Part shown: piece after piece, positions 21,861 through 28,131 of the stretch
How positions within the stretch are numbered: the stretch's first letter is position 1
Layout: every line of letters starts with the position of its first letter
Virus record (IMG/VR): IMGVR_UViG_3300042540_000633
Coordinates: 1 to 28,131 of that record
DNA: 28,131 bases
Source of the DNA: a virus
Direction: 5' to 3' (one strand)
Translations under genes and position numbers: made by a program
Notes under the pieces: generated by a model
Seen by the model: the letters and a program-made list of their open reading frames with translations, nothing else
The model's database searches: none
What the model was told of the DNA's origin: nothing

Positions 21861-21912
21861 GCGGCTAGGAGAATCTAACCCTCACCCGCTCACTCGCGGA
21901 TCTCCTAGCCGC
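21861..21912 (-). terminator. 12-bp inverted repeat over the terL stop
   Basis: GCGGCTAGGAGA (21861-21872) and TCTCCTAGCCGC (21901-21912) are perfect complements, with a smaller CCGC/GCGG hairpin nested in the 28-nt loop. The right arm contains the terL stop codon (21905-21907). No T-run follows, so it may be a T-less terminator, a processing site or an mRNA-stabilising element. Confidence 0.6.
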
Positions 21913-23509
21913 GCCCAACAACAAATCGTGGCGCGCGCTTCTGCATTGAGGCCTCCACTACTGGCTTTGGTTTTTCGGCAAGACGAATTGGTGATTGTGC
22001 TTCTTGCTGCCACACCGCTTGCGCACCAGCCATAGCCATCACAAGGTCGTCGTGACAACCCTCATCCGCTTCTGGGCGCGGCTCCTTACCATTCCGATCC
22101 CTGAATACGAACGTCCGCAGCTCGTCAATCAATAGTTCACTCTTGATCCGACCCGGCTCGTCACGAATAGCGGCTTGCATCGCGGCGAGCATCATTGGTC
22201 GAGTCGCCGCAGTCGTGTTCCACCCTAGTGTCTGATCCATCCGCGCTTTCATATGGATCGGATTGCGTGGTCGCCAGATATGCGGATACCCCATCACGTT
22301 CTTCAGCTGGGTAAGTACCGCTGCTCCCGGCCCGTTACGCTCCACGGCCAGCATCGCATCGTTATACAAGCGCCCGAGGCGCGCCAAGTCGTCTGCGAAC
22401 TCGTCAACATCCGCGCGATACCGGATTTCAGCGACTTGCTCGCCATTATCAAGGCGCAAAACCTCCGCAACCGAGTAATCTGACCCCGCACCAGCACCAA
22501 TGCGGGATTCTCGACGCTCATACTCGTCAAAACTCACCGATCCAGCCACATCAGCAAAGATTAGGTAGCGAACACCGGCTTGTGGTGTCTCCCACATGCG
22601 CATTCCGCCCCGCGATTCCTCATAAAACTCAATCCGACCACCAGGAACCGGCATTCCACGCACAAAACCACGCTTCTTGTGTGGTATGGCGGCCAGATTG
22701 TCAAGAAAGTTAAAGAATTGGCGGCCTGTTGTCTCACAAAACTCGCCCAGAACACGAATCTTGTACGCCGCAGAGTCCTCACCCCACTGCTGCTTCGCAT
22801 CCTGCACCCATTCTTGCGTAATCAAAGCGCGCTGAGCCTCTTTGGACACGCGCTCATTGGTGAAACACGGCGCATCAAAGGCGCTCATGTGGACTGGGTA
22901 CCAGCCAGAGTCTTTCTGGAACGCTTTGTAGAACGTTCCGGCGGGTCGAGTCGGGTTCCCAATCAGCAAAACACGCGCCTCGTCGGCGGTAAGGAAACCT
23001 TCCGATGCTTCGTAGATAGCTTCGTCAATACCACTGGCTTCGTCTACGACAAGCATCATGCGGGGAGAGTGATGACCCTGAAAACGCTCCGGCTTGTCCG
23101 TCGAAAGCCCCATCGCGAACCAGTCCGAGCGCACTTCTAGCGAAGACTTGAATATCTTGCCAAAAGCATCCTTACCACCAGGAATCTTTGAGTGTCGCAC
23201 GGCGATCTCACGCCACAAGAGCTGCTCAACCTGACTCCACGTAGGCGCAGTGGTGATAACGCGGCACGGGCCTTCCGTCATAAAATCCAACACAGCCGTC
23301 GCCGCAGTTGCCGTCTTACCAACACCATGACAAGAGCGAACAGCGACACGCTTGTGCTTACGAAGCGCCTTTAGAATCTCGCGCTGCTTTGACCAGGGTT
23401 CGAAACCAAATAGATTCTTGGCTTTCCACACTGGGTCAGCCATTTTTGCGCGCAACTCTAATGCGGCACGATCCATCTCGTTACTCAATGCTGATCCACC
23501 GATCCACAC
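21905..23509 (-). CDS. terL: Terminase large subunit (534 aa)
   Basis: ATP-driven DNA packaging motor and nuclease. ATPase: Walker A SCHGVGKT (59-66), Walker B MMLVVDEASG (151-160), coupling motif GNPTRPAGTFY (about 184-194). RNase-H-like nuclease: Asp in LIFADVAGS (D320), GSDYSV (D344), Glu in AVERNGPG (E390), and the late acidic pair in CHDDLVMAMAGA (487-488). The length is normal. The start is uncertain: GTG 23509, a TTG at 23476+12 with GGTGG upstream, or ATG 23476; all keep the motifs, and the residue numbers above use GTG 23509. It follows terS by about 20 nt. Confidence 0.95.
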   Translation of the reverse strand: MWIGGSALSNEMDRAALELRAKMADPVWKAKNLFGFEPWSKQREILKALRKHKRVAVRSCHGVGKTATAATAVLDFMTEGPCRVITTAPTWSQVEQLLWREIAVRHSKIPGGKDAFGKIFKSSLEVRSDWFAMGLSTDKPERFQGHHSPRMMLVVDEASGIDEAIYEASEGFLTADEARVLLIGNPTRPAGTFYKAFQKDSGWYPVHMSAFDAPCFTNERVSKEAQRALITQEWVQDAKQQWGEDSAAYKIRVLGEFCETTGRQFFNFLDNLAAIPHKKRGFVRGMPVPGGRIEFYEESRGGMRMWETPQAGVRYLIFADVAGSVSFDEYERRESRIGAGAGSDYSVAEVLRLDNGEQVAEIRYRADVDEFADDLARLGRLYNDAMLAVERNGPGAAVLTQLKNVMGYPHIWRPRNPIHMKARMDQTLGWNTTAATRPMMLAAMQAAIRDEPGRIKSELLIDELRTFVFRDRNGKEPRPEADEGCHDDLVMAMAGAQAVWQQEAQSPIRLAEKPKPVVEASMQKRAPRFVVGRG

Positions 23510-23530: not shown

Positions 23531-24073
23531 TCACGCAGCATCATCAGGCTCAACCACGACTTCTTCCGCCTCAATCTCAAGCGCCTTCTGCGCATCCTCA
23601 ATAGGAATCTGCGCCAACTGCATCAACGAAAGAGTCTGCGGCCCAACCTCATGCTCCACCACCTCCTGCTTATGAAACCCAAAGCTACGTTCAAGCTGCC
23701 ACGCCGCAGGTTTCCAATCACCCTCCTCCACAGCCTCATTCATCACACGAAGATTCCGCTTCATATGCTTCTTCCGCGCCTCATAAAACCTATCCGAGAA
23801 CTCGATATACGAAGGTTTCTCACGCAAACGCCCACCACGAAGTGCTGTCACAAACGTATGCTCCGACACGCCCAGCACACGCGCAATCGCAGACTCGAAC
23901 GCGCCCAGGCTCGCCATCTCAATAGCCTCCTCCATCTGCTCCGCACTCAGCTCGCTAGGAGTCACACTATTCCTATAAGCACTAGTAAGAAAAGCAGAAT
24001 CATCAAGACCAAACTTCTCAATGCCAGTCTGCTTATCCTCACGCTGCATCTTCAAATCAGCACGCTTAGTCAC
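23531..24073 (-). CDS. terS: Terminase small subunit candidate (180 aa)
   Basis: Recognises the packaging site and feeds DNA to TerL. The basis is position immediately upstream of terL and architecture: a helix-turn-helix-like segment (EMASLGAFESAIARVLGVSEHTFVTAL, about 52-78, which ends in an ALRGGR turn), a basic helical middle (RFYEARKKHMKRNLRVM) suited to the oligomerisation core, and an acidic C-terminus (EAEEVVVEPDDAA) typical of TerL-binding tails. The start is GTG 24073 with GGAG six bases upstream, overlapping the stop of the 53-aa ORF (GTGA). TerS sequences vary widely, so the family is not named. Confidence 0.85.
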   Translation of the reverse strand: MTKRADLKMQREDKQTGIEKFGLDDSAFLTSAYRNSVTPSELSAEQMEEAIEMASLGAFESAIARVLGVSEHTFVTALRGGRLREKPSYIEFSDRFYEARKKHMKRNLRVMNEAVEEGDWKPAAWQLERSFGFHKQEVVEHEVGPQTLSLMQLAQIPIEDAQKALEIEAEEVVVEPDDAA

Positions 24074-24250: not shown

Positions 24251-24414
24251 GATCCGCCTCAAAAGCGGAGACCTAGCCCGTCAGAGGGGCATCGGATCAG
24301 TGCGCCCTCCACCCTCAACAACGAACGCACTGATCGCAGGTGAGCAGCCAAACCTGCAAGCAACCCTGCGACACATAGTTGCCTTCCCCCAGTGAGGGGG
24401 GGGAAAGGGGGGGG
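24251..24414. promoter_or_regulatory. Structured non-coding region upstream of terminase genes
   Basis: Consecutive inverted repeats lie head to tail. These are GATCCG...CGGATC (24251-24256/24293-24298), GATCAGTGCG...CGCACTGATC (24295-24304/24326-24335, perfect 10 bp), GCAGGT...ACCTGC (24336-24341/24352-24357), GCAAC...GTTGC (24360-24364/24378-24382) and CCCCC against eight G (24386-24390/24396-24403). The last is followed by AAA and another eight G (24407-24414). The first two compete for the same bases. Position next to terS makes a pac/cos site, origin or late control RNA the main candidates. Confidence 0.5.
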
Positions 24415-24443
24415 AGCAAAAACCGCTTGCAATCACACCACCA

Positions 24444-24721: not shown

Positions 24722-24727
24722 AGAGAA

Positions 24728-24757
24728 GCCCCGTCGCCAGACGTTGCGCGACGGGGC
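24728..24757 (-). terminator. Intrinsic terminator after the 171-aa gene
   Basis: GCCCCGTCGC (24728-24737) pairs perfectly with GCGACGGGGC (24748-24757) over a 10-nt loop. On the minus strand it is followed by TTCTCT. It lies about 15 nt past the stop of the 171-aa gene. Confidence 0.75.
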
Positions 24758-24771
24758 TAGGTGGGTGCGGT

Positions 24772-25287
24772 CTAGCTGGTAGGGGTGAGCTGGTGCGCTG
24801 CGACTAGCTGCGCGTACTGATCCGCGATACGCGCGGCGAAGGCTTCCACGTGTTCATTGTCGCCGATGCAGATGGCGTAGGGGTCGTGGGGGAATTGCGG
24901 GGTGCCGTCCTCTGCGTTTGGGGTGGGGACGTGGAAGTATTCGTCACTGCCTGCGCTTAGCTCATCACGGAGAGCTACGCCGTTATGGTAAGTGCCTACG
25001 CCAACGAAATAGGCGTAGTCTCCGCCGTATGTGTGCGGATCGCCGGTTTCGGGGATATCGTCGCCAATGCCAATGGTGGCGCAATTGCCGCCAGACATAT
25101 ACAGGTCTGCGTTGATGCCGCGAGCTGCGATGCAGTCGCGGAGATGACGCATATCTATCAGCTGGGTGGGGACGCGTCCGGTGCCGGTGCAGGCGCTGCA
25201 CATGTAGCGGGTGCCGAATACGGTTACGTACGTGCCGTCTGAGCTGTAGCAGGCATCGCACCGTTCCCAGTTTTTGAAGCGGTTCAC
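24772..25287 (-). CDS. Zinc-ribbon early protein (171 aa)
   Basis: Unknown function. The N-terminal 35 residues hold two knuckles, CDAC (10-13) and CSACTGTGR (about 30-38), of the DnaJ-like zinc-ribbon type. The rest is Gly/Asp/Tyr-rich with an HTYGGDYAYFVGVGTYH stretch and ends in an amphipathic helix (HVEAFAARIADQYAQLV). It starts at GTG 25287, with GGAGG in the shared leader about 9 nt upstream. It is a single-gene transcription unit bounded by its own promoter and terminator. Such small zinc proteins are common in phage accessory regions and often bind nucleic acid or host proteins, which is inference. Confidence 0.7.
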   Translation of the reverse strand: MNRFKNWERCDACYSSDGTYVTVFGTRYMCSACTGTGRVPTQLIDMRHLRDCIAARGINADLYMSGGNCATIGIGDDIPETGDPHTYGGDYAYFVGVGTYHNGVALRDELSAGSDEYFHVPTPNAEDGTPQFPHDPYAICIGDNEHVEAFAARIADQYAQLVAAHQLTPTS

Positions 25288-25296
25288 TTAGAAAGA

Positions 25297-25350
25297 CCTC
25301 CGATAGTTGGACTACGTGCGTATTGTCGGCGATGCGGGTGAGCTTTGCAA
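25297..25350 (-). promoter_or_regulatory. Promoter and shared leader, unit 3
   Basis: TTGCAA (25345-25350), 17-nt spacer, GACAAT (25322-25327), then 12 nt to the leader CCAACTATCGGAGG (25297-25310) carrying the SD of the 171-aa gene. The -35 region and the leader recur at two other unit starts. Confidence 0.65.
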
Positions 25351-25416
25351 GTGGTGGCGCGTGGCGAGCTGCTAAGCCCTGGCGGGCGGTTCGGGCGCGT
25401 CGAGCGTGGCACGGTT

Positions 25417-25440
25417 CAGCAGCAGCGCAGCAGCAGCAGA
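25417..25440. repeat. CAG/GCAGC microsatellite, boundary 3
   Basis: CAGCAGCAGC followed by GCAGCAGCAGC and AGA. It uses the same 11-bp unit as the repeat at 26394. Here it lies between the terminator and the promoter. The whole 25288-25503 gap holds no gene. Confidence 0.8.
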
Positions 25441-25452
25441 CAACGCAAAAGA

Positions 25453-25477
25453 CACCCCGCTAGGCGTAGCCGGGGTG
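25453..25477 (-). terminator. Intrinsic terminator after the 32-aa gene
   Basis: CACCCCG (25453-25459) pairs with CGGGGTG (25471-25477). Inside, CTA pairs with TAG around a GGCG loop, leaving one bulged C. On the minus strand TCTTTTG follows. The architecture is the same as that of the terminator at 26353. Confidence 0.8.
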
Positions 25478-25503
25478 CCTCTATCGTGCGGTGTATGTTG
25501 CCG

Positions 25504-25602
25504 CTAGTCGCGTTTAGCGGGGAGGTACAGGAGGGCTAGGAGGGGAATCGCAGGCGCGACGATTAGCGCGGTCAGCTTCAGGGTGTCTATTAAGTCAGTC
25601 AT
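25504..25602 (-). CDS. Single-span membrane peptide (32 aa)
   Basis: MTDLIDTLK is followed by a hydrophobic stretch of about 18 residues (LTALIVAPAIPLLALLYL) and a positive tail PAKRD. One transmembrane helix with the basic end probably in the cytoplasm. A longer in-frame ORF exists upstream, but the ATG at 25602 overlaps the stop of the preceding gene (ATGA) and is preferred. It is the last gene of its unit, directly before a terminator. Holin or host-membrane modulator are possible; neither is shown. Confidence 0.6.
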   Translation of the reverse strand: MTDLIDTLKLTALIVAPAIPLLALLYLPAKRD

Positions 25603-25943
25603 GCCGTACCGTTCGGCGCGTCGTGGCTGATCCCTTCCACGTGACGATCGCAGGTCTCGTATGCCTGCTGCAAGCTGGGTAGGTAATCCTCGACCCACGT
25701 GCGCACCTCACGCTCTACATCACTAGCGTAGACCCATGACGCGCAGCGGACTACGTGCCGAGCGCGGAAGCCCTTAGCCGTTCGCACGATACGCACGTCG
25801 CCACTCTCAGAAAAGCGAACGCACGTTACAGCGTCGCCGTGATCCTCCCACCGCTGCAACGTGCCACGCCTGCTACCAGGCAGCGGGGTGAACCCTGCGA
25901 AGCGAATTAGCGCGTGATGCGCGCCGATGGTAGCGGCGGTCAT
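25599..25943 (-). CDS. Hypothetical early protein (114 aa)
   Basis: Not recognised. The N-terminal two thirds look like a small beta-rich fold (FAGFTPLPGSRRGTLQRWED, VTCVRFSESGDVRIVRTAKG), the rest a helix (REVRTWVEDYLPSLQQAYE) with CDRHVEG at the end. No CxxC pair is visible. It overlaps its neighbours by ATGA on both sides (25943 and 25602), so it is the middle gene of a three-gene coupled unit. Confidence 0.65.
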   Translation of the reverse strand: MTAATIGAHHALIRFAGFTPLPGSRRGTLQRWEDHGDAVTCVRFSESGDVRIVRTAKGFRARHVVRCASWVYASDVEREVRTWVEDYLPSLQQAYETCDRHVEGISHDAPNGTA

Positions 25944-26266
25944 GCCTGCACCTGCGCTTCACGATTGCGCCGCTCAACTGCGTACGGGTTCAGCGCGTCG
26001 CTGATAGCGTCGCGCGACTGATGCACTGCGTAGTAAAGCTCACGAATGCTAGTAAATCCTTTATCCGTGCCACTGCCGACGAATCCCGGCACGTCGTGGA
26101 TATGTCCCGCGTCAGTGTCTCGACATACATAGCGCAGCTGCCCGTATGGGCTAGCCATGCAAAGCCCCCGCACCTGCTCGGGCGTGCATACGCCAGTGTT
26201 TACTAGCAGCCCCGCGTAAGACGCTAGCACGCTAGCTACGCGCTGATGCGTAATACGTTCGGTCAT
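25940..26266 (-). CDS. Hypothetical early protein (108 aa)
   Basis: Not recognised. It begins MTERITHQRVASVLASYAGLL, has two isolated cysteines (GVCTPEQVRGLC) and a Gly/His-rich middle (YVCRDTDAGHIHDVPGF). It ends in a basic helix (NPYAVERRNREAQVQA). The longer in-frame ORF up to 26422 would translate the terminator hairpin and CAG repeat, so it is rejected; ATG 26266 follows GGAGGAATC in the shared leader. It is the first gene of the three-gene unit. Confidence 0.7.
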   Translation of the reverse strand: MTERITHQRVASVLASYAGLLVNTGVCTPEQVRGLCMASPYGQLRYVCRDTDAGHIHDVPGFVGSGTDKGFTSIRELYYAVHQSRDAISDALNPYAVERRNREAQVQA

Positions 26267-26270
26267 GATT

Positions 26271-26328
26271 CCTCCGATAGTTAGGGTACCGATAGGTGCA
26301 GTATGCGCGGAGCTGCGGCGGAATGCAA
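26271..26328 (-). promoter_or_regulatory. Promoter and shared leader, unit 2
   Basis: TTGCAT (26323-26328), 17-nt spacer, CATACT (26300-26305), then 14 nt to the 15-base leader CCTAACTATCGGAGG (26271-26285). It drives the three-gene unit 26266-25504. Confidence 0.7.
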
Positions 26329-26352
26329 GCGCGAACGCCTGCCAAATGCGAA

Positions 26353-26384
26353 CGGCACCCCGGCTATCGTAGCCCGGGGTGCCG
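26353..26384 (-). terminator. GC-rich terminator after the gp88-like gene
   Basis: CGGCACCCCG (26353-26362) pairs with CGGGGTGCCG (26375-26384). GCTA/TAGC extends the stem around a TCG loop with one bulged C. Only GTTCGC follows on the minus strand, so there is no T-run. Confidence 0.7.
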
Positions 26385-26393
26385 CCATGATTC

Positions 26394-26420
26394 GCAGCAG
26401 CAGCGCAGCAGCAGCGCAGC
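26394..26420. repeat. 11-bp tandem repeat, boundary 2
   Basis: Two exact copies of GCAGCAGCAGC (26394-26404, 26405-26415) plus GCAGC, ending two bases before the stop codon of the gp88-like gene. Confidence 0.85.
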
Positions 26421-26422
26421 AA

Positions 26423-27238
26423 CTAGGCAGGCTGTAGGAATCCTCGACTAGTGCCACGCTCACCCGCTAGCCTACCCTTCGCGCGCAGCCCAACGATTAC
26501 GCCGCGCGGATCAGTAAACCGCATCTCGTGCGCGTCACCGTCAATCACCGGAATGGTATCGCCCCACGGTGCGCGCCACGTTGCGGGTAGCGCGTCACCC
26601 TTCGCAGTGTCAAACACTACAGCCACGCGCGCACCAGCTTGCAGGAATCGGCGCGCAGCTACACCATCACCGCCGGGATACGAATACGTGATATCAATAC
26701 CCGCCTCTAGCGCGTCCGGCTTGGGACGCTTCGTGTATTCGTAAACCGTCGCATATTCCTGAATGACTGCGACTAGCTCGGGCGCTACACGGTGCCACGC
26801 TACGTCCGTCGTGCCATTCATTCGGACGGCTAGGCGCAACCCTTCCCGCTCGGCTTTGCGGCTAGCCGCTTTCACTTCGCGGATTAGCTGCGCTGCGAAT
26901 CCTTCCGGGTCAAGGATCATCAGCGCAGCGCGTCGAATCCTTGCCGCCTGCGTAGCGTTCCACCCGCTAGCGTCAAGATTGATACCGCCATAGCCCGAAG
27001 TGTTCAGACACCCGTAGCGGCACTCTGCCGTTGACCAGGCGCAAAGATTCGCGCCGCTGCTAGTTGCGGGTGCTGCGTACAGGATGACCGGCAGGTATCC
27101 GCGCTCACGATTCCCCTTGGCAAGCTTTGCCGATTCGTACGTGAGCAGGTACCCGTCACCCTTCACGGGGTAGTGTGCGTTCACCGCCGCAAGCGTGGCG
27201 CGTACGTTGCTGAGGGTATCGGCGCTAGCCCTAATCAC
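26423..27238 (-). CDS. gp88-like Cys-motif protein (271 aa)
   Basis: Resembles the 'gene product 88' family of actinophages by recall. An N-terminal YESAKLAKGNRERGYLPVIL leads to APATSSGANLC, and then C-x6-C-x3-C (C66, C73, C77) followed by LNTSGYGG. A helix-rich middle follows (ARIRRAALMILDPEGFAAQL), then AVRMNGTTDVAWHRVAPEL and a YEYTKRPKPD stretch. The family has no firm biochemical role; the three cysteines could hold a metal or Fe-S cluster. GTG 27238 overlaps the zinc-ribbon gene by 8 nt and gives the family-like N-terminus; the open frame continues to 27529 but only inside that gene. It is second in a two-gene unit. Confidence 0.7.
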   Translation of the reverse strand: MIRASADTLSNVRATLAAVNAHYPVKGDGYLLTYESAKLAKGNRERGYLPVILYAAPATSSGANLCAWSTAECRYGCLNTSGYGGINLDASGWNATQAARIRRAALMILDPEGFAAQLIREVKAASRKAEREGLRLAVRMNGTTDVAWHRVAPELVAVIQEYATVYEYTKRPKPDALEAGIDITYSYPGGDGVAARRFLQAGARVAVVFDTAKGDALPATWRAPWGDTIPVIDGDAHEMRFTDPRGVIVGLRAKGRLAGERGTSRGFLQPA

Positions 27239-27488
27239 GGAACAATCCCATAGCTGCGGCATCCTCGAGCATGCTGGCGATACCGTCAATATCATCGCCC
27301 AAGATATCGTGCATGGCAGTGGCGGCATCCGCCATGCCGCGCAACGGATAGCCGCGCTCCGCGTGCCATTCGCACGCATCGCACCCGAGGATGCGCGTGC
27401 CGTCAAGCTGTAGCCCGTATTCGTCAGGCTCATGCAGGCAATCAATGTCCCACGGTTCGCCGCACTTCGTGCAGTATGTGTCCGCCAT
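27231..27488 (-). CDS. Small zinc-ribbon protein (85 aa)
   Basis: Starts MADTYCTKCGEPWDIDCLHE and has a second knuckle GCDACEWHAERGYP (about 35-48), so CxxC...CxxC probably binds one zinc. The C-terminal half is acidic and helical (MHDILGDDIDGIASMLEDAA). ATG 27488 is preceded by GGAGGAAACA in the shared leader. It is first in a two-gene unit and overlaps the gp88-like gene by 8 nt. The function is unknown; a nucleic-acid or protein-binding role is the usual guess for such ribbons. Confidence 0.75.
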   Translation of the reverse strand: MADTYCTKCGEPWDIDCLHEPDEYGLQLDGTRILGCDACEWHAERGYPLRGMADAATAMHDILGDDIDGIASMLEDAAAMGLFRD

Positions 27489-27493
27489 TGTTT

Positions 27494-27549
27494 CCTCCGA
27501 TAGTTAGGATGGCACGACGCACGGTACACGTATGCAGTGCGGAACGCAA
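27494..27549 (-). promoter_or_regulatory. Promoter and shared leader, unit 1
   Basis: TTGCGT (27544-27549), 17-nt spacer, TACCGT (27521-27526), then the 15-base leader CCTAACTATCGGAGG (27494-27508), identical to that of unit 2. Confidence 0.65.
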
Positions 27550-27583
27550 GGGATCAGAGCTGCTGATTACGCGCCAATAGAAA

Positions 27584-27612
27584 GGGGGAACCGGCGCTAG
27601 TCCGGCTCCCCC
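27584..27612 (-). terminator. Intrinsic terminator after the 74-aa gene
   Basis: GGGGGAACCGG (27584-27594) pairs with CCGGCTCCCCC (27602-27612) with one mismatch. TTTCTATT follows on the minus strand. Confidence 0.75.
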
Positions 27613-27616
27613 AATA

Positions 27617-27637
27617 CAGCAGCAGCAGCAGCAGCAG
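27617..27637. repeat. (CAG)7 microsatellite, boundary 1
   Basis: Seven exact CAG units directly upstream (plus-strand sense) of CACAACTA, between the stop of the 74-aa gene and its terminator. Confidence 0.9.
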
Positions 27638-27642
27638 CACAA

Positions 27643-27867
27643 CTACCAGCAGTCAAGCGCCGCCGATTGCATTAGCCTAGACCCTGGCAGTAGCGAACGA
27701 CTAGCCTGCTCCCCTGCCACGAAGTATCCCCACTCGGGGTGCGCTATTGCGTAGTCGCGCAGGTTATTCGTCGTGACGCTAGTCCACTCTGGCAGGTGCC
27801 TAACGGCAACTAGCATTCGCGCAGAGTCTGGCACAAGTAGGCTCACGGTCAGATTGCGCCGACTCAC
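27643..27867 (-). CDS. Hypothetical early protein (74 aa)
   Basis: Not recognised. Beta-strand start (RRNLTVSLLVPDSARMLVAV), then LPEWTSVTTNNLRDYAIAHP and a hydrophobic core WGYFVAGEQ. GTG 27867 overlaps the stop of the upstream gene (GTGA). It is the last gene before the (CAG)7 repeat and terminator. Confidence 0.65.
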   Translation of the reverse strand: MSRRNLTVSLLVPDSARMLVAVRHLPEWTSVTTNNLRDYAIAHPEWGYFVAGEQASRSLLPGSRLMQSAALDCW

Positions 27868-28127
27868 GATGCCTCTTTCGTGTACGCCTCAGCCTCAGCT
27901 ACTGCGTCGCGTTCAAGTGCGCGTTCCATCATGCCGATCAGCTCGTCAGCGCACGAGATCAGGGCGCGACGCTCATGCTCCCATAGCATGTACCGCTGGG
28001 ATTCGATCACACTGAGCAGCGTGCGTACGTGGTCGCAGAGTCCTGGGTGCTTGTGGTTGGCGGGGCAGATCCAATCACACCGGTTGAGCATGTCGGTTAC
28101 CTCGTCTTCCCAATCAGTTGCGCTCAC
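27864..28127 (-). CDS. Hypothetical early protein at window edge (87 aa)
   Basis: Not recognised. Acidic start (SATDWEDEVTDML), a Cys/His cluster C-x3-C-x8-C-x-H (RCDWICPANHKHPGLCDH, about 16-33) that could bind zinc, then a long helix (about 35-87). GTG 28127 lies four bases from the window end. The sequence there, CATCGTGAG, is the same as at the next junction, where GTGA overlaps the previous stop, so an upstream gene probably ends here too. An earlier start outside the window cannot be excluded. Confidence 0.6.
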   Translation of the reverse strand: MSATDWEDEVTDMLNRCDWICPANHKHPGLCDHVRTLLSVIESQRYMLWEHERRALISCADELIGMMERALERDAVAEAEAYTKEAS

Positions 28128-28131
28128 GATG

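Follow-up and report, generated by a model that had tools for sequence, protein, structure and literature searches.

Why should the early genes of a phage be separated at three places by the same set of short sequence elements? The question was raised by positions 24,728–27,637 of a 28,131-bp virus record (IMGVR_UViG_3300042540_000633; this whole stretch is called the window, or W, below), in which each of three boundaries between early units carries a CTG-type repeat, a hairpin, a putative promoter and a short leader. A first-pass annotation of this DNA had taken the units to be insertable gene cassettes, with the microsatellites as points of recombination or slippage. From comparison with related phages, we consider it likely that each boundary is a promoter-terminator element of the promoter early stem-loop (PeSL) kind, combined with a leader resembling the Start-Associated Sequences (SAS) of other phages, and that such boundaries delimit exchangeable early units. 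The earlier interpretation thus stands for the exchangeable cassettes, which were strongly supported, and for slippage, but not for the microsatellites as recombination points.

Relatives were traced in viral contigs by a leader scan, a promoter-leader pattern and terminase alignment. The carriers of the module are L028, L038, L047, L075, L156, L324, L329 and L350, most of which are among 39 terminase relatives; the contigs of L075, L038, L156 and L047 are also represented by further cuts, L316, L319, L331 and L332, respectively. All contigs are metagenomic and mostly fragments, and the genes of the relatives were called by simple chaining of reading frames.

Parts of the three boundaries

All relevant genes and boundary parts of W are on the minus strand; in transcription order, this region comes before the terminase genes. 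The parts listed by the first-pass annotation (repeat, hairpin, TTGCNN-N17 promoter and leader) were all found at the three boundaries, the putative promoter as a TTGCNN-N17-NANNNT box pair. At boundary 1, a (CTG)7 tract (27617–27637; (CAG)7 on the plus strand) directly follows the stop codon of the upstream gene and is succeeded by a terminator-type hairpin with a U-rich tail (27584–27612), a putative promoter, TTGCGT-N17-TACCGT (27521–27549), and the leader AACTATCGGAGG (27494–27505). Boundary 2 has the same arrangement, with an imperfect CTG tract containing the tandem 11-bp unit GCAGCAGCAGC directly after the stop codon (26393–26421), a hairpin (26353–26384), a putative promoter, TTGCAT-N17-CATACT (26300–26328), and the leader AACTATCGGAGG (26271–26282). 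At boundary 3 the order of the first two parts is swapped, as had been noted before: in transcription order, a terminator hairpin with a U tail (25451–25479) precedes the imperfect CTG tract, a 24-mer (25416–25439), and these are followed by a putative promoter, TTGCAA-N17-GACAAT (25322–25350), and the leader AACTATCGGAGG (25297–25308). Hairpins 2 and 3 share CACCCCG/GCTA/TAGC and one bulged base, which is G in the transcript and C on the plus strand. The folding z-scores of hairpins 1, 2 and 3 were -3.2, -2.7 and -3.4, respectively, and the pairing of hairpin 1 is preserved through base changes in relatives.

We propose that each boundary would close one early transcription unit and open the next. 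The hairpin would terminate the upstream message, the vegetative-type promoter would let transcription of the next gene begin independently, leaving only a very short untranslated leader, and the fixed leader with its Shine-Dalgarno sequence would provide a strong start of translation. Since such a boundary would make the unit self-sufficient, genes could be gained, lost or swapped without breaking expression. Boundaries would then persist at fixed sites while the gene content turns over, and boundary sequence common to different phages may act as homology for recombination.

Gene replacement between near-identical phages

The comparison of gene content at leader copies in relatives, which had been suggested on the first pass, revealed exchange at the boundaries, with start-to-stop replacement of genes and retention of the modules in two near-identical phage pairs. 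In the first pair, W and L075 are 95.6% identical in DNA over the 5' flank (27856–28130) and 94% identical over the 3' flank, from 24770 (final terminator) through the terminases. Between these flanks only two blocks match: 27491–27650 (93% identity), which extends from the stop codon to 3 nt short of the start codon, and 25296–25604 (87%), which comprises a membrane peptide, hairpin, tract, promoter and leader. The genes between the blocks have no match, and the junctions fall at start and stop codons; boundary 2 and unit 1 are wholly absent from L075. In the second pair, L156 and L350 share 92.4% identity over 1,290 bp of backbone from the final terminator, 89.9% over 149 bp at boundary 1 and 92.3% over 209 bp at boundary 3, and every gene between the boundaries differs, as in W and L075. 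With their near-identical backbones and the replacement of all genes between fixed regulatory boundaries, the two pairs are unusually clean natural experiments, although, coming from one phage group, they do not represent fully independent events. They show phages turning over early accessory genes, apparently without breaking expression.

Other relatives give a similar picture. Boundary 2 is common to W, L028, L047 and L156, its neighbouring genes being different in the last two; between W and L047 it retains 84% identity, though neither neighbouring gene has a match. W, L047 and L156 have the whole of unit 1 (promoter, genes, CTG tract and hairpin), which L075, L038, L329, L350 and L324 lack. 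The slot between boundaries 1 and 2 is occupied by an 85-aa gene and a GP88 gene in W, and by a gene for the DNA polymerase III beta clamp (PF02767/PF02768, phrog_947; L332:4083–5270 and L331:157–1344) in L047 and L156. The gene designated F3 is opened by boundary 2 in L156 and by boundary 1 in L075 and L038, indicating that one whole unit was inserted or deleted from leader to leader. As a side observation, the beta clamp, in the slot that is filled by GP88 in W, makes a replication factor an exchangeable cassette.

Judged from the alignments, the parts of the module also move separately. L324 and L350 have a leader and the following gene in common, their promoters are unrelated, and the junction lies 12 nt upstream of AACTAT. 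L047 has kept the promoter and leader of boundary 1 and has neither hairpin nor tract there. At boundary 3 of L156 and L350 the hairpin is unrelated to that of W, with the tract and the downstream part conserved, and in L038 the boundary-3 hairpin and tract stand at the end of a different unit.

Several observations weigh against a part for the modules in the exchange. The 74-aa gene directly upstream of boundary 1 (27643–27867; stop codon 27643–27645) has only about 35% protein identity to its L075 counterpart, with flanking DNA at 93–96%; it was precisely replaced (W 27650–27856) and its 5' junction carries no module. Gene replacement, gain and loss were also found at other, module-free borders in relatives, many terminase relatives lack the leader, and RecT was not found in nine contigs. 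As exchange is seen at junctions without a module, modules are not required for it. A rival explanation is that the modules are selected regulatory elements with no role in recombination; illegitimate recombination, at any position, would exchange the genes, and selection would then favour intact units. This agrees with our reading on regulation and differs on recombination only; besides the module-free junctions, it is favoured by the fact that the modules show the same level of identity as the flanks, the pattern that vertical inheritance would give. It does not account for the junctions found inside modules, in the leader for L324 and L350 and just upstream of the -35 for L047, or for the leader-to-leader endpoints of the unit 1 insertion or deletion. 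We give it slightly less than an even chance. In the reading preferred here, the shared boundaries may themselves serve in recombination; the L075 contig encodes a single-stranded DNA (ssDNA)-binding protein, a RuvC-like resolvase and an exonuclease, which makes homologous recombination plausible.

The CTG tract

The CTG tracts are not expected by chance. In a first-order Markov control, CTG/CAG tracts of at least 4 units occurred at a mean of 0.015 per window-sized sequence and none had 7, compared with two tracts of at least 4 units plus the array of 11-bp units at the boundaries of W. At the orthologous boundary 1, between conserved flanks, the number of perfect CTG units is 7 in W, 7 in L075, 5 in L038, 7 in L156, 4 in L329 and 8 in L350, and this variation from 4 to 8 copies supports the slippage proposed on the first pass. 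The tract is missing where the hairpin is missing (boundary 1 of L047, and L324), and hairpins without a tract occur in L329 after the membrane peptide and at the final terminator. In L337, a more distant relative without the leader, GCTGCGCTGCTGCTGC directly follows a terminator. A literature search on trinucleotide repeats at phage terminators found nothing. Most probably the tract is a non-coding element prone to slippage, which is either tolerated next to terminators or under light selection there.

Could the tract itself be the exchange site or a hotspot of recombination, with strand annealing or slippage as possible routes? Its presence at boundaries 1 to 3 and its variable copy number are compatible with this, as is the position of the upstream edge of similarity, in the tract or within about 18 bp of it, at boundaries 1 and 2. 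The similarity at boundary 3, interrupted by a swapped hairpin, begins again at the tract. However, a repeat common to all sequences extends alignments unaided, so that edges at the tract do not discriminate. Several clear junctions fall outside the tract: they are located at start codons, within the leader or just upstream of the -35. Gene or part exchange without a tract is seen at boundary 1 of L047, in L324 and at boundary 3 of L329. We thus regard a hotspot as improbable, and the microsatellites as recombination points were not upheld.

Equally improbable is that the tract works at the RNA level, folding into a CUG hairpin within the 3' untranslated region and so either stabilising the message or assisting termination. 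It is true that the repeat is always CTG on the coding strand and lies beside terminators, but the predicted CUG pairing is weak, and in W, L028, L075, L156, L350 and L337 the boundary-3 tract lies after the terminator and would therefore not be in the upstream message. Pairing of the CTG tract with CAGCAGC downstream of terminator 1 was also considered and was dropped because this partner is absent in L329 and L350.

A stronger proposal, which we consider less probable still, is that of a dedicated cassette-exchange site, at which phage recombination proteins would act on the leader or the CTG tract and swap whole early units in place, with microsatellite slippage tuning exchange or expression. 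If this were true, it would represent site-targeted shuffling of accessory genes in a phage group not known to have it.

Leader and promoter

The leader consists of AACTATC followed by the Shine-Dalgarno sequence GGAGG. The 12-mer AACTATCGGAGG occurs exactly three times in the 28 kb, always on the minus strand and only at the boundaries; the distance to the start codon is 4–9 nt at each copy. It is invariant in 16 of the 17 copies from W and the relatives, which precede many different gene families, the remaining copy (L324) having one mismatch. In L328, a homolog of this L324 gene is preceded by a variant of the leader, AACTATCGGAAGG. There are 1–3 copies per phage, most contigs being incomplete. 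Other units use other leaders, such as CCTAGACCTGAGGAGGTCACGCAATG, which in L038, L047 and L329 stands in front of a single gene family (MPTYTTITEN...); these sites, at L319 ~2640, L332 ~6400 and L329 ~1500, have a promoter-like sequence of their own.

TTGNNN-N16..18-NANNNT is present at all 17 leader copies. A stricter promoter pattern, chosen after viewing the data, was found at 15 of them compared with 0.3% in shuffles. A sigma-70 scan did not detect the TTGC promoters. Unlike the leader, promoter spacers match between orthologs only.

That the repeated leader is merely a good ribosome-binding site reached by convergence is very unlikely since, although GGAGG is the Shine-Dalgarno core, AACTATC beyond this core is identical, or within one change (L324), at all 17 copies, which precede unrelated genes, and W has no further occurrence of the exact 12-mer.

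Genes of the region and extent of the searches

In transcription order, the region consists of gene 27864–28127, the first gene of the region, gene 27643–27867 (the 74-aa gene), boundary 1, unit 1, boundary 2, unit 2, boundary 3, unit 3 and the final terminator, all on the minus strand. Unit 1 contains a gene for an 85-aa CxxC zinc-type protein (27231–27488), for which no homolog was found in the relatives compared, and a 271-aa GP88 family gene (26423–27238; PF17338, phrog_1617). Unit 2 begins with two genes (25940–26266, 108 aa, and 25599–25943, 114 aa) that were found, among relatives, in L028 only, and ends with a 32-aa predicted membrane peptide (25504–25602; MTDLIDTLKLTALIVAPAIPLLALLYLPAKRD), which is kept in seven phages alongside boundary 3, with varying genes preceding it. 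Unit 3 is a single 171-aa CxxC zinc-type gene (24772–25287), in place of which L075 has an unrelated 288-aa gene. The final terminator hairpin (24727–24758; folding z-score -4.3) ends the cassette region and has neither CTG tract nor leader. The terminase small (23531–24073) and large (21905–23509) subunit genes lie beyond it on the same strand, and in the long gap before them there is a purine-rich G tract (24395–24415) with AGGGGGGGGAA repeated. Small CxxC zinc-type proteins are common among the cassette genes (W 24772–25287, L316:5885–6751 and L350:5385–5588), some of which match DnaJ CXXCXGXG weakly, without reaching the curated cut-off. A run of 15 G at 4–18, at the very start of the record, is probably a sequencing or assembly end artefact.

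Scanning the viral contigs for a leader 14-mer gave 58 loci, mostly by chance, and a locus was retained only if it had two leaders or a good promoter. The gapped promoter-leader pattern was too loose in both the viral and the genome collections, recovering L075 and L156 amid noise. L312 to L314 were rejected as three chance matches to an 18-mer downstream of hairpin 1, and the GP88 relatives L062 to L067 were set aside, their CTG runs not being at such boundaries and the leader being absent. The 32-aa peptide as query yielded no new contigs, no cultured phage matched the 6.1-kb region at the DNA level, and searches of the region for tRNAs and Rfam families were negative. The contigs are about 39 kb, and their best terminase matches, which include Arthrobacter, Curtobacterium and clostridial phages, are below 60% identity; the GP88 and terminase matches suggest an actinobacterial host.

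Comparison with known systems

Two known systems resemble these boundaries in part. PeSL elements were reportedly described by Arbiol et al. in 2010 and Comeau et al. in 2014. In T4-like phages, they combine a terminator stem-loop and a promoter between exchangeable genes and have been proposed to mediate modular shuffling (PMC4503421, PMC3950731). The boundaries described here likewise have a predicted stem-loop terminator and promoter together in an intergenic gap, and gene content at them varies between relatives. They differ in that the phages are not T4-like myoviruses, being unrelated in group and sequence, in the addition of a fixed Shine-Dalgarno leader and a CTG microsatellite, and in that each boundary retains its own promoter allele at a fixed site.

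Start-Associated Sequences (SAS/ESAS) are known from Cluster K mycobacteriophages (PMC3203893) and Cluster EF Microbacterium phages (PMC7302621). They are motifs of 12–13 bp (13-bp consensus GGGATAGGAGCCC), conserved well past the Shine-Dalgarno core, which lie in large intergenic gaps, directly before the start codons of non-structural genes from different families; the ESAS are 17-bp imperfect inverted repeats just upstream, and about 10–19 copies occur per genome (PMC3203893, PMC7302621). AACTATCGGAGG is similarly strongly conserved at the ribosome-binding position before different gene families. However, it gave no match to GGGATAGGAGCCC with up to 2 mismatches, no ESAS-type inverted repeat of at least 8 bp was found upstream of it, and its low copy number per phage and its pairing with a terminator and a CTG tract are unlike SAS. 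Since the sequence, inverted-repeat and copy-number comparisons with SAS all failed and the phages are not T4-like, the boundaries belong neither to the T4-group PeSL nor to SAS.

Morons, which are prophage genes with their own promoter and terminator, offer a third comparison. Unit 1 is moron-like in being an extra unit with its own predicted promoter and terminator, placed between genes that are adjacent in relatives, but here the boundaries stay while the contents change. Neither an integrase nor a prophage context was seen, no search having been aimed at either. The present data extend promoter-terminator shuffling, which has been described in T4-like phages and suggested for the haloarchaeal HGTV-1, to a further phage group, in which it is combined with a leader of SAS-like type and a trinucleotide repeat of variable length.

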